Positions 2,367 to 6,023 of a stretch of 64,000 bases of DNA are shown here, piece by piece. The stretch's first letter is position 1. Each line of letters begins with the position of its first letter. The position numbers and the translations under genes were made by a program. Source of the DNA: Oribacterium sp. P6A1 (GTDB lineage: Bacteria; Bacillota; Clostridia; Lachnospirales; Lachnospiraceae). Where the stretch lies: positions 62,001 through 126,000 of the forward strand of contig NZ_JNKO01000008.1 of NCBI RefSeq assembly GCF_000702885.1. The letters are read 5' to 3'. The notes below the pieces were generated by a model. It was not told where the DNA came from. It saw only the letters and a list, made by a program, of their open reading frames with translations, and did no database searches.

Positions 2367-2507
2367 ATTTAAAGTGAATAAACCCTTGAAATTACGTGCC
2401 TTTCAGCACTTCAATTTTTTTCCGGCCAATTATTTCTGACTATCCGGCCAATTTTGGAATTCACAACAAATTGTCTTTTTTTTGTATTTCTCTGAAACTG
2501 AATATAT

Positions 2508-2549
2508 CAGACATTACGCAACATTACTCAGACATTACTCAACATTACT
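2508..2549. repeat. Two tandem 21-bp units at the end of the AAA-ATPase gene
   Basis: Units 2508-2528 and 2529-2549 (CAGACATTACKCAACATTAC plus T) differ at one base (G at 2518, T at 2539). The stop codon of the minus-strand ATPase gene lies in the second unit, so the duplicated unit repeats the last sense codons and the stop outside the gene. Just outside, TCCGGCCAATT occurs twice between about 2418 and 2455. The function is unknown; the repeat probably arose by replication slippage. Confidence 0.75.
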
Positions 2550-4214
2550 TTTCTTTATCAGAAGTTCCTTTCCTTCAAAAGCAAACGCAAGCTTTATTAT
2601 CCTGTCTTTGCTATATCCCGCTTCAAGAAGCTCGGTTTCATACTTCTTATCTTCGATCTGTTTCAGCGCTATATCGCAAAGCTCATCAAGGGTCCTGCCA
2701 TTATCGCTCCGACGCTTGGACTTAAACTCGATGATAACAGCATTATCCTTTTTATCCTTCGGACGGAGCATGACATCATAACGGCCCAGTCCGCTTTCGC
2801 GGTTTGACTTTATCTCGTATCTGCCACGAAGTTCCACAAGAAGCCCGATCACAAGACCGTGATAGAAGTTTTCCGGAGCTGCTTTACCACTTCCGTCAAA
2901 AGTACTGATCATACTTTCGCAGATTTCTGATAAGGTATCTGTCATGTCATCTATGTTGCCTTCCAGGAGTGCTTTAACAAAATAACTGTAATTTTCTCCT
3001 GCATTCTCAAACCATCTCTCTACAAGCAGACTAAAGCTGTCTTTGACTTCGTGATTTGTGAGTTTAAGGCTATACACCGCCATGTTTCCTTCGCCTTCTA
3101 TAGAAACCGGCTTTAGATATCCGGCTGAGAACAAAAGACTCCATATAGCGTTCTTATTACCGGTTATCTCTCCGTAGACAAGCTGTTCATCAATCTTTGT
3201 TTGTATCACGCCATCATTAAGCAGATCCTCAAAAGCCTTCTTTATCTCAACGCTCCCTTCTCTTACGAGCTTTGACACAAGTGAATTAGAGCTTGTATTA
3301 GCCCAATACGGTTCATATTTACCTTCTTGAAGGAAAGAAATGATGGACCATGGATTATAGATATCTTCAGTATTTCCAAACTTAAACCCATCGTACCATT
3401 CTTTTACCTTTTTCTTTTCAGAACTGTATCCGTAAGCTTCCAATGCCTCGAATACTTCCTTCTCAGTAAATCCAAAACAGTCAGCATACTTATCAGATGA
3501 AATAGTTACAATTTTCAAATTGTTAAGATCTGAAAACAATGACTCCCTGCTTACGCGTGTAATACCGGTCAAAAGGGCTTTCTGAAGGTTTGGATTGGTT
3601 TTTAAAGTGGAATTAAACATATTCCGCATGTAACCTGAGATTTCATCCCAATAGCCATTTACATAAGCCTCCTGCATTGGAGTGTCATATTCATCTATCA
3701 GAATAATGACTTTCTTATTATAGAAATCCGAGAGCCATCTGCAAAAAGTATTTAGGCATTGGCACGCGGTTTTCTCATCCATGTCGTAACTTACTTTTTT
3801 GTAGAATTCCAGATCTTTATCACCCATTTTATCTGTGAGCCAGGTATTCTGTGCGATCCACTCAGTGAAAAGCCAATTAAACTGTTGTAAAGCACCTTTA
3901 TATGTCTCTGCTTTTACACTGGCAAAGGAAACAAAGAGTACCGGCCACTTTCCACACTCTTTCATCATTTCAGTATCCTGTGAAATACTTAATCCATCAA
4001 AGAGCTCCTCATTGTTTCCCTGTCTTTCAGAAAAGAATTTCTCAACAGTGCTCAGCATCAGAGTTTTTCCGAAACGACGCGGACGGGTGATCAATGTAAT
4101 ATCATCCTTACTTTGCCACCATTCATTTATAAAATAAGTTTTATCTACGTAAAAAGCATTTTCTGTTATAACCTTTTCGTAATCTTGTAAACCCAGTCCA
4201 ACCGTCTTTAGCAT
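2535..4214 (-). CDS. AAA-ATPase-like protein with C-terminal PD-(D/E)XK nuclease-type domain
   Basis: The 559-residue protein belongs to the widespread anaerobe family usually annotated AAA-ATPase-like (PF09820) plus DUF1703. A P-loop variant RPRRFGKT lies at residues 44-51. IILIDEYD is the Walker B. The C-terminal part carries YDVML followed by VIIEFK, the D...ExK core of a PD-(D/E)XK nuclease fold. I start it at 4214, not at the longer ORF start 4262, because AAAGAGGTG sits 7 bases before this ATG. Members are often multicopy and patchily distributed; their function is not established. It lies with a structured RNA between two copies of the methyltransferase gene end, which suggests an acquired segment. 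Calling it a defence gene would be speculation. Confidence 0.9.
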   Translation of the reverse strand: MLKTVGLGLQDYEKVITENAFYVDKTYFINEWWQSKDDITLITRPRRFGKTLMLSTVEKFFSERQGNNEELFDGLSISQDTEMMKECGKWPVLFVSFASVKAETYKGALQQFNWLFTEWIAQNTWLTDKMGDKDLEFYKKVSYDMDEKTACQCLNTFCRWLSDFYNKKVIILIDEYDTPMQEAYVNGYWDEISGYMRNMFNSTLKTNPNLQKALLTGITRVSRESLFSDLNNLKIVTISSDKYADCFGFTEKEVFEALEAYGYSSEKKKVKEWYDGFKFGNTEDIYNPWSIISFLQEGKYEPYWANTSSNSLVSKLVREGSVEIKKAFEDLLNDGVIQTKIDEQLVYGEITGNKNAIWSLLFSAGYLKPVSIEGEGNMAVYSLKLTNHEVKDSFSLLVERWFENAGENYSYFVKALLEGNIDDMTDTLSEICESMISTFDGSGKAAPENFYHGLVIGLLVELRGRYEIKSNRESGLGRYDVMLRPKDKKDNAVIIEFKSKRRSDNGRTLDELCDIALKQIEDKKYETELLEAGYSKDRIIKLAFAFEGKELLIKKSNVE

Positions 4215-4323
4215 GTGAACACACCTCTTTCCACTACGTCCATATATGCCTAATAGTAGCATAATTCCGGCTGTCTCTCAAATAAGATGGACTCGATAGT
4301 TTTCAGGTGAAATCATAATACTC

Positions 4324-4357
4324 CAAAAAAAATGACCGTGAATATCTCCACGGTCAT
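4324..4357 (-). terminator. Intrinsic terminator of the structured RNA
   Basis: Arms ATGACCGTG (plus 4332-4340) and CACGGTCAT (4349-4357) form a perfect 9-bp stem. On the minus strand a run of eight or nine T follows (plus A run 4324-4332). It also separates the RNA from the ATPase gene starting at 4214. Confidence 0.85.
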
Positions 4358-4567
4358 GATCAACTAAAAGTATCTGGTTAATATGTTGCTATCCCAACAT
4401 GGTAAGCCTTTCACTTACCTGGCATATACGACCACCGATAGTTCGATGTCCGTCGGGTGCTTCCGTTAGTGATAGTTGTTCTCGATGCCAGAGCACCGCC
4501 ATACCGCTCCTTAGTATGGATGTCCATCATACGACGTGAAAGAGAATACTCTTTCGGCGATTAAATT
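4324..4567 (-). ncRNA. Structured non-coding RNA with intrinsic terminator (raiA-type motif is my best guess)
   Basis: No ORF fits here, but the minus-strand transcript folds richly. The elements are: a hairpin GAAAGAG/CTCTTTC (plus 4538-4555); a GTATG/CATAC hairpin; a long-range stem GGTGCT/AGCACC (4456-4461 with 4492-4497); GGTAAG/CTTACC (4401-4419); ATGTTG/CAACAT (4383-4400); and a strong terminator. The loop of the GGTAAG hairpin can pair over 7 bases (plus CTTTCAC 4408-4414 with GTGAAAG 4536-4542) with the 5' hairpin, which makes a pseudoknot that competes with that hairpin. Its own promoter precedes it and a terminator ends it, so it looks like a free-standing RNA about 240 nt long. Size, compact multi-helix fold and taxonomy recall the Clostridia/Actinobacteria raiA RNA motif, but I cannot confirm the family. 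Confidence 0.6.
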
Positions 4568-4572
4568 ATTTC

Positions 4573-4600
4573 ATATTAGAATATCATTTTCAATAGTAAA
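4573..4600 (-). promoter_or_regulatory. Candidate promoter of the structured RNA
   Basis: Minus-strand -35 TTTACT (plus 4595-4600) and -10 TAATAT (plus 4573-4578) are separated by 16 bases, placing a start near 4566, just before the first hairpin. The -35 box is weak, so this is moderate evidence only. Confidence 0.4.
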
Positions 4601-4717
4601 CTATAGTTACATTGCCCTCGCTCAATTGTAGTTAATTGTTCTGTTTTATAAAAATGTGATTATTTCTTTTTATATTGCGATAAAAAATGAGGCTTCGGGC
4701 AATTTTCCGGCCAAAAT

Positions 4718-4762
4718 AAAAGTACTTCTCCGGTATCTTATAGATACTTTTGAAGTACTTTT
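4718..4762. terminator. Terminator after the RlmL-like gene
   Basis: Arms AAAAGTACTTC (4718-4728) and GAAGTACTTTT (4752-4762), with an inner GTATC/GATAC pairing. T runs are present in both directions. It is homologous in its right half to the terminator at 2203-2247. Confidence 0.7.
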
Positions 4763-4881
4763 AGTTCACTTTATGGTCTCAAAACCCACGTAATTTCAAG
4801 CTTTTTTCTCGAAATCATGAGGCTTATTCTGGTTCTGCATCCTGCCTGTGTATGAATAGAAATAGGTCTTCATCATACCAT
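4742..4881. repeat. Native copy of the 140-bp direct repeat flanking the ATPase/RNA segment
   Basis: It matches 2227-2366 with 8 differences and covers the methyltransferase stop codon, its last ~27 codons and the terminator arm. The two direct copies bracket 2367-4741, which holds only the AAA-ATPase gene and the structured RNA. This is the arrangement left by site-specific or homologous integration at a gene 3' end, although no integrase is present. Confidence 0.8.
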
Positions 4882-5992
4882 TATAGATCTTACGGTTCTT
4901 ATCGGCCTTGCCGAGATACTTCTGTGAATCCTCCCAGGCCGTGATGACATGCATAGCCCAGCTGTCGAGACCCTGATATGCCTCCTTAAGCTCTGTATAG
5001 AGCATAGGAAGATTTCTCTTGTCCTCGATACGCTCGCCGTAAGGCGGGTTACTGATGATGTAACCGAACTTACCGCTGTGGGAGAAGTTGGCAACATCCC
5101 TGACCTGAAGGTGGATGATCTTGTCTACGCCTGCACGCTCGGCATTCTCTCTTGCCACCGGAATAACGTCAGGGTTAATGTCATAGCCCTGAATGTCTAT
5201 CTTTTTTCCGGACTTTGTTACACCTGTCTCAAGAAGCTCGGTGTCAACCATCTCATTTGCTTCGTCGAGGGCATTGTACCATACCTTCTTGTCAATGAAG
5301 TTAGTCCAGGTCTCTGAAACGAAAGCTCTGTCCATACCTGGTGCGATATTGGCTGCCATCATGGCTGCCTCGATGATAAATGTTCCTGATCCGCACATAG
5401 GATCAACAAGAGCATGCTCCTTTGTCCAGCCTGACTGCATGATGAGGGCTGCCGCCAGGGTCTCTGTAATAGGTGCGAGACCCTGCTTCAGACGATAGCC
5501 TCTCTTATGGAGAGACTCTCCCGAAGTATCAAGACATACCGTGAACTCATCCTTATAGGCAAATACTCTTACCGGATACTTTGCACCGTGTTCCTCGAAC
5601 TGCTGAATGCCGAAGAAATCGCCGAGTCTTGCAACCATAGCCTTCTTCATGATGGACTGAATGTCTCTGGTTGAGAAAAGCTTTGATTTAACCGAGCTTG
5701 CCTTGGTTACCCAGAAGCTTCCGTCCTTTGGAATATACTCTTCCCAGGGAAGCTTCTTTGTTGCCTGGAACAGTTCCTCCCAGGTCTCAGCCTTGAAGGA
5801 GCCGACCTTAAGAAGGATACGCTCAGGTGTACGCATGAAGATATTGGCACGGGCAATGGCGTCTGCGTCACCGATAAAACCTACACGTCCGTCTGTAACT
5901 GTTGTAATGTCATATCCTAAATCTATAACTTCCTTTTTGGTCACTGCCTCAAGTCCAAAATGACATGGCGCAACAAGTTCAAATGTTTTCAT
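4796..5992 (-). CDS. THUMP-domain class I rRNA N2-guanine methyltransferase (RlmL N-domain/YpsC type)
   Basis: The 398-residue protein is the usual length for Firmicute YpsC/RlmL-like enzymes, which methylate N2 of a guanine in 23S rRNA using S-adenosylmethionine. A ferredoxin-like/THUMP N-terminus is followed by SAM motif I DPMCGSGT (197-204) and the catalytic NPPYGER (315-321), the N2-guanine or N6-adenine methylase signature. I chose the ATG at 5992, preceded by TGGAG 7-8 bases upstream, over the longer ORF start at 6019. The gene's 3' end is duplicated at 2281-2366. The exact target nucleotide is inferred from the family only. Confidence 0.92.
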   Translation of the reverse strand: MKTFELVAPCHFGLEAVTKKEVIDLGYDITTVTDGRVGFIGDADAIARANIFMRTPERILLKVGSFKAETWEELFQATKKLPWEEYIPKDGSFWVTKASSVKSKLFSTRDIQSIMKKAMVARLGDFFGIQQFEEHGAKYPVRVFAYKDEFTVCLDTSGESLHKRGYRLKQGLAPITETLAAALIMQSGWTKEHALVDPMCGSGTFIIEAAMMAANIAPGMDRAFVSETWTNFIDKKVWYNALDEANEMVDTELLETGVTKSGKKIDIQGYDINPDVIPVARENAERAGVDKIIHLQVRDVANFSHSGKFGYIISNPPYGERIEDKRNLPMLYTELKEAYQGLDSWAMHVITAWEDSQKYLGKADKNRKIYNGMMKTYFYSYTGRMQNQNKPHDFEKKA

Positions 5993-6023
5993 ATTAATCT
6001 CCATTCTATGTTGAATCAAATAA

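Follow-up and report, generated by a model that had tools for sequence, protein, structure and literature searches.

A pseudoknotted RNA gene of Oribacterium sp. P6A1 as a candidate orphan antitoxin in a PBECR4-associated, type III-like family

The analysed stretch of DNA (64,000 nt of Oribacterium sp. P6A1, contig NZ_JNKO01000008.1, positions 62,001 to 126,000; hereafter the window) contains a structured RNA of ~234 nt on the minus strand (4325–4558), located between an annotated rlmL-like methyltransferase gene (4796–6019) and an annotated AAA-ATPase gene (2535–4262). Its 5′ end was placed ~7 nt past the −10 box, the RNA body reaches ~4370, and an intrinsic terminator follows at 4357–4325 on the minus strand (11-pair stem, 4-nt loop and T-run, from the terminator scan). 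A sigma-70-type promoter, TTGAAA-17-AATAAT with TG ahead of the −10 box, was located on the same strand (4565–4593; 10 of 12 matches) and is in register, by eye, with TATAAT and TAAAAT of two further copies of the RNA (L010 and L011). The promoter by itself is weak evidence, because the 501-nt region holds four promoter-like sites where shuffled sequences hold 2.0 on average; terminators in the same region numbered one against 0.3 in shuffles. The minimum free energy of the RNA was −80.6 kcal/mol (z = −4.24, none of 200 shuffles being as low), and two relatives gave z values of −4.48 and −4.30. By these measures the window RNA is a real, conserved, structured RNA gene with predicted transcription. 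A sequence-only reading had placed a ~240-nt minus-strand transcript between the methyltransferase and AAA-ATPase genes, which agrees with the gene coordinates and with the length predicted from promoter to terminator.

Positions 4250–4750 were scanned against 4227 Rfam families to E 10, and only two microRNA models were returned, both on the terminator hairpin and far under their cut-offs; the scan of the whole window gave tRNAs only. The window RNA class is absent from Rfam 15. The same reading had guessed at raiA (RF03072) and had proposed an Rfam search, in which neither RF03072 nor any other known family matched the window RNA. Although raiA is likewise ~200 nt long (model of 209 positions) and free-standing, a sequence-structure match to the window RNA is lacking. 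A search of the own genome for RF03072 (gathering cut-off 101.3 bits) gave no match, and the control genomes gave none either, so that the Rfam scan to E 10 is the better test of raiA. Direct repeats of at least 15 nt were not found inside the window RNA.

Nine copies of the window RNA class were counted in eight genomes (the own genome and seven others), L010/L033 and L011/L038 each being taken as one genome in two collections with agreeing sequences. Within the genus, blastn gave a 98% identical copy in Oribacterium sp. WCC10 (Lachnospiraceae), together with an 85-nt 3′ fragment there. Among 397 Lachnospiraceae genomes it gave one 82% copy and one copy with an internal deletion; three of the 24 genomes matched (G000, G226 and G190) carried the RNA and the other 21 showed matches of 20–40 nt. 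A pattern of 18 fixed bases, applied to the genome collection, marked true copies at four of eight loci and added Lachnospiraceae UBA1778, the remaining pattern matches (L034, L036, L037 and L039) being unrelated sequence. With the covariance model R1, matches were obtained in three of the 17 genomes searched within the genus, with a diverged copy in G004 at 66 bits, and in 3 of 392 genomes of the order, including the own genome (G625 at 101 bits, G321 at 45 bits). The sole R1 match among the 21 short-match loci (L018, E 0.0032) was rejected as a coding stretch with a chance 21-nt identity. With the window RNA as query, one 31-nt match at E 0.9 was obtained in phage DNA and none in plasmid DNA, and exact RNA motifs were found in viral contigs 0 and 0 times. 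The copy with an internal deletion at L011:1510–1642 (also L038), in which TGGC is joined to CCAGAT, lies behind an ORF that by eye is integrase-like.

The fitted alignment comprised eight copies, of which seven rows are distinct; its cells were paired to 95.7%, and both sides had changed at 21 of 38 pairs, compared with a mean of 7.3 after shuffling and 3–6 for slid structures; the covariation score was 0.421 against at most 0.100 with slid structure, the alignment being fitted to the covariance model and hence leaning towards its own structure. For the cell counts of individual helices and knots, the pairing arms of seven sequences were chosen manually, the overlapping P0 arms of G004 being excluded. 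All elements are given on the minus strand. The 5′ hairpin P0 (GAAAGAG/CTCTTTC, 4538–4555) was paired in 24 of 25 cells from five lineages, with compensated stem changes. Hairpin P2 (CCATAC/GTATGG with loop TAAGGAGCG, 4499–4519) showed double compensatory changes at all 6 of 6 positions and, as helix 1 of the fitted alignment, changes on both sides in six of seven pairs. P3 (CGGTG/CATCG with loop CTCTGG, 4483–4498) was paired in 30/30 cells; as helix 2 it was 100% paired with two of six pairs changed on both sides. The two-part hairpin P5 (ACGG-CATCGA/TCGGTG-TCGT, 4428–4453; helix 4) had changed on both sides in 8 of 10 pairs, P6 (GTAAGT/GCTTAC, 4402–4418; helix 5), which bears the GTGAAAG loop, was paired in 36/36 cells, and P7 (ATGTTG/CAACAT with loop GGATAG, 4383–4400) was paired in 24/24 cells for its inner four pairs and to 90.5% as helix 6.

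Two long-range pairings join these hairpins. In PK-A, the 3′ strand CCAG (4374–4377) has its partner CTGG (4491–4488) in the P3 loop; it was paired in 20/20 cells yet is invariant within the window RNA class, and it is absent from G004. In PK-B, the 5′ strand CTATC (4471–4475) has its partner GATAG (4393–4389) in the P7 loop; 28 of 30 cells were paired, three of five positions showed a double change (CTATC/GATAG, CTGCC/GGCAG), and G321 and G004 each retain four of the five pairs. As judged from these predicted pairings, PK-B is a covarying long-range pseudoknot in the window RNA class. The free-standing, compact and conserved RNA with promoter and terminator of its own, as described in the sequence-only reading, is thus borne out by the fold energy, the copies in relatives and the double changes. 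Its two-state switch fared differently: GTGAAAG and CTTTCAC are both present and perfectly complementary in the window, but in the WCC10 copy CTTTCAC has become CTTTCCC with the loop unchanged, and in six lineages the mean Watson–Crick run was 3.83 for matched and 3.53 for swapped partners. The switch is therefore unsupported as a conserved feature, and other pseudoknots are conserved instead.

At the UBA1778 locus (L035), RNA and terminator are followed by an open PBECR4 ORF (PF18813, E 5.8e-11, profile positions 2–184 of 188; 43.5 bits against a Pfam cut-off of 27), which lacks its own stop codon and reads through, in the same frame, into a glycosyl hydrolase ORF. The window has at this place only a 12-codon ORF, MISPENYRVHLI and a stop (4278–4316, minus strand), which was also found in WCC10, and the Merdinaster copy (L033) carries a 22-codon ORF at the same spot. 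The ORFs begin at equal position with MISQGSYE (L035), MISKSNYE (L033) and MISPENYR (window and WCC10), longer reads being MISKSNYELVE... for L033 and MISQGSYEAVK... for the PBECR4 ORF of L035; the window ORF and L033 are identical at 22 of 35 nt, and tblastn with the short 12-codon query gave no match. From these starts we infer that the 12-codon ORF is the cut-off beginning of a PBECR4 gene. A full PBECR4 ORF is located downstream in only one of the nine copies of the class (L035). The ORF lists behind the RNA at L131, L134, L011 and L038 held nothing PBECR4-like, L133 (the G625 copy) showed a PDDEXK_2 transposase fragment instead, and L033 ends ~100 nt after the RNA, so that it cannot tell which gene follows. 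PBECR4 (PF18813) gave 0 matches in the own genome (95 contigs, 97.6% complete). In L133, the transposase gene fragment occupies ~1–1660 of its own strand, where the terminator would be expected, and G625 is thereby the second instance of a PD-(D/E)XK gene behind the window RNA class.

PBECR4 was found in 71 of the 397 Lachnospiraceae genomes sampled and in 2 of 249 genomes drawn from the phylum. Seventy PBECR4 loci were read, the matches left aside being mostly weaker or fragmentary, and an RNA stands directly upstream of PBECR4 in L035 and in most of these 70. A strict terminator was present at most 130 nt upstream of the PBECR4 start at 64 of the 70 loci, compared with 122 of the 495 control pieces on the same strand and 115 of the 495 on the opposite strand. 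Upstream fold energy gave a mean z of −1.56 at PBECR4 loci (n = 69), many single loci being unremarkable, and of −0.60 in the control (n = 82); promoters were seen by eye and not counted. Four RNA classes take up 58 of the 70 loci, namely drum (25), class A (21), a tandem-pseudoknot class (7) and a large class (5), drum being assigned by the Rfam cut-off on the strand of the gene and the other three by regex and eye; no class fits the other 12, and at L110, L112 and L128 no RNA was visible by eye. Class A RNAs are made of hairpins with A-rich linkers between them and loops that pair at a distance, and the class of tandem H-type pseudoknots held a mean of 2.0 knots, compared with 0.67 at the remaining loci and 0.3 within gene bodies. 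The larger RNA class stands ahead of the PBECR4 genes of L090, L091, L106, L107 and L109. When 200 genomes were searched for drum (RF02958), 15 of the 18 matches were located directly ahead of PBECR4 and one ahead of a C-terminal remnant, with no PBECR4 in view near the remaining two. A class A RNA (R2, E 6e-12) was also found in an Erysipelothrix phage, ahead of a PBECR4-like gene with an in-frame stop. In Oribacterium sp. WCC10, contig C37 (L144) holds an RNA that by eye is drum-like, together with a PBECR4 gene broken by a stop.

Proteins of the BECR fold are predicted metal-independent RNases, and PBECR domains have been treated in general (PMC5512222). His51 is invariant in 46 PBECR4 proteins, which is fitting for the predicted BECR-fold RNase activity. 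The predicted PBECR4 structure had a pLDDT of 85; compared with solved structures, its best Z was 2.2 (VIA), to a RelE chain, which is unconvincing, and Foldseek with the model gave nothing at E 0.001, chains of ToxN and CptN, for which structures exist (PMC4627078), not being among the matches listed. The profile of the 46 proteins, run against PDB sequences to E 10, matched three nitrophorin sequences only, at E of at least 0.4, and no type III toxin, and sequence searches of the PDB with PBECR4 queries gave chance matches only. The L035 protein was not found in phages, plasmids or viral contigs, the L062 protein not in phages and the L049 protein not in plasmids; three PBECR4 proteins and the ATPase gave no match in NCBIfam and PADLOC.

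For the PBECR4 alignment and a quick tree, 45 of 54 intact proteins and L035 were used, the other nine intact and 16 not-intact proteins being left out. The tree splits into two halves, one with drum partners and one with class A partners, separated by a single change, and the six RNA labels required 8 changes on this quick tree, compared with 23.1 on shuffling (0 of 200 as low). RNA class co-segregates with PBECR4 protein clade. The L035 protein falls into the class A half (99), but on a long branch, its placement being unsure. Class A and the window class have a topology of two long-range knots in common, in which the loop of the first hairpin pairs with the 3′ end and the loop of the last hairpin with the stretch that follows the first; class A is built of small hairpin and A-rich units, whereas the window class has the extra hairpins P0, P5 and P6. 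The class A equivalent of PK-A varies, with 13 variants and a mean run of 5.0 for matched against 3.38 for mismatched arms (0 of 20000 permutations), and the test of PK-B in class A covered 22 variants, of which L093 was wrongly extracted (0 of 5000 permutations as good); these permutations ignore relatedness and use hand-picked letters. When R1 was run against 74 loci, its best two matches were class A RNAs (L143, E 0.0018; L043, E 0.028) and the third, at E 1.8, lay elsewhere, only 2 of the 22 class A RNAs offered being recovered. The L143 locus belongs to a genome of the window's genus and has an intact PBECR4 gene. The class A model R2 recovered one of seven full window-class copies (L134, E 0.0024), not the window RNA. 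Scores of 13–17 bits are not decisive, because the chance coding stretch L018 reaches 15.3 bits with R1. The window RNA class is probably related to class A, the links by covariance model being weak.

The gene behind the 12-codon ORF (2535–4262, minus strand) is annotated as AAA-ATPase_like with PDDEXK_9. Homology of the window to an ATPase copy without RNA (L006) starts at ~4285, close to where the 12-codon ORF ends, and the ATPase unit therefore probably took the place of the PBECR4 toxin gene by insertion. RNA and ATPase together form a unit (2417–4578, minus strand) that is 99.3% identical at another locus of WCC10 (L004:6667–8827), and this identity at a different locus suggests recent movement of the unit.

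In type III toxin-antitoxin systems, one promoter serves an RNA and the toxin gene directly behind it, with an intrinsic terminator between the two, and the RNA is pseudoknotted and made of tandem repeats; the toxin, of the ToxN, CptN or TenpN family, arrests cells, cleaves its RNA and is neutralised by it (PMC5086642). In their mode of action the pseudoknotted RNA is abundant, read-through of the terminator is rare and the protein is held by the RNA (PMC5086642, PMC4627078). PBECR4 modules resemble the type III systems ToxIN, CptIN and TenpIN, in sequence terms, in upstream RNA, terminator and pseudoknots, and several of their RNA classes (class A, tandem-pseudoknot) hold repeated units. The window RNA is in contrast one large branched pseudoknotted unit and not a row of 36–45 nt repeats, and its locus is without an intact toxin gene; since tandem repeats and an intact toxin are lacking, we do not count it among the type III systems and liken it to them only in its presumed working.

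We consider it rather probable that the window RNA is an orphan RNA antitoxin belonging to a type III-like family whose toxins would be PBECR4 proteins. This reading builds on four computational results, namely the conserved RNA with its fold, the covarying long-range pairing, the gene order with PBECR4, and the co-segregation of RNA class and protein clade. In an intact module, one promoter would yield a pseudoknotted RNA, the intrinsic terminator would halt most transcripts, and occasional read-through would yield the predicted RNase PBECR4, whose activity the bound RNA would block; toxicity of PBECR4 and its neutralisation by the RNA are thus parts of the proposed model. In the window, the PBECR4 gene was apparently cut after ~12 codons and the AAA-ATPase/PDDEXK gene now stands in its place, which would leave an orphan RNA of antitoxin type that has kept its promoter, fold and terminator and is presumably still produced.

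The order of structured RNA, terminator and gene equals that of a transcription-terminating riboswitch, and the RNA might accordingly be a cis-acting leader or attenuator that senses something while the terminator decides on reading of the downstream gene. We regard this as unlikely: at least four different-looking RNA classes go with one protein family and follow its phylogeny, which is the reverse of a riboswitch with one aptamer and many genes, the RNA persists without a PBECR4 gene in L131 and L134, and terminator and body do not overlap in the predicted folds. A trans-acting small RNA, with an incidental adjacency to PBECR4 in L035 and to the ATPase in the window, would suit the fact that most window-class copies lack an adjoining PBECR4 ORF, as well as the weak covariance-model links to class A. 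It is slightly less probable again, given that a like ORF start follows just past the terminator in three lineages and that the knot topology is common to class A RNAs ahead of PBECR4 genes.

The RNA and the AAA-ATPase/PDDEXK gene might together make up a mobile element, with a role of the RNA in transposition or in control of the ATPase, as could be read from the joint occurrence of both at the second WCC10 locus and from the other PD-(D/E)XK gene behind the RNA in L133. The close ATPase copy in L006 (87%) is nevertheless without RNA, and in L035, L131 and L134 the RNA is not followed by this ATPase, so that a mobile element of this kind is quite improbable. Membership of the RNA in raiA or in some other Rfam family already described, favoured by size and compactness only, is next to impossible after the scan to E 10.

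The orphan-antitoxin reading also touches drum, a curated Rfam family that, like the window RNA class of L035, stands ahead of PBECR4 genes and is separated from them by a terminator. The window RNA differs from drum in sequence and fold, with no drum match at E 10; drum partner proteins make up the opposite half of the PBECR4 tree, and drum (RF02958) gave 0 matches in the own genome. In the literature searched, PBECR4 and PF18813 were not named, RF02958 appeared only in papers on RNA methods and Rfam, and no PBECR4-RNA link was found, although the original drum description may note the gene context; the excerpts of PMC8191799, PMC7657543 and PMC7779021 give no function or partner of drum. The pairing of PBECR4 with an upstream RNA is apparently undescribed so far, and the comparison points, for drum and the window RNA, to a specific partner protein and to a role that can be tested. 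The wider proposal, to which we give a nearly even chance, is that Lachnospiraceae have another family of RNA-protein toxin-antitoxin systems, one that diversifies fast and consists of PBECR4 genes, encoding BECR-type RNase toxins, and the RNAs upstream of them, drum included; the window RNA would be a stand-alone member kept after toxin loss, perhaps for continued protection against PBECR4 toxins that arrive with mobile elements. If true, this would add an RNA-protein toxin-antitoxin family with a type of toxin unreported for type III in the literature searched, and would provide a set of co-varying RNA-toxin pairs for the study of how RNA specificity evolves.

Further repeats and ATPase copies were also observed. 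Four other ATPase matches are present in the own genome: a full-length one (87%) without RNA, a part with a stop, one of 36%, and a short C-terminal piece. In WCC10 the unit stands directly behind an ORF named dhaM-like by eye, and TTGGCCGG motifs are found close to the end of the unit. In the window, RNA and ATPase are flanked by a direct repeat of 165 bp with 91% identity (2200–2364 and 4715–4879), which covers the 3′-terminal part of the rlmL-like gene together with the hairpin that follows; an 86% copy of the repeat is located on contig C52 of the own genome, and one copy in WCC10 (L004:10097–10269).
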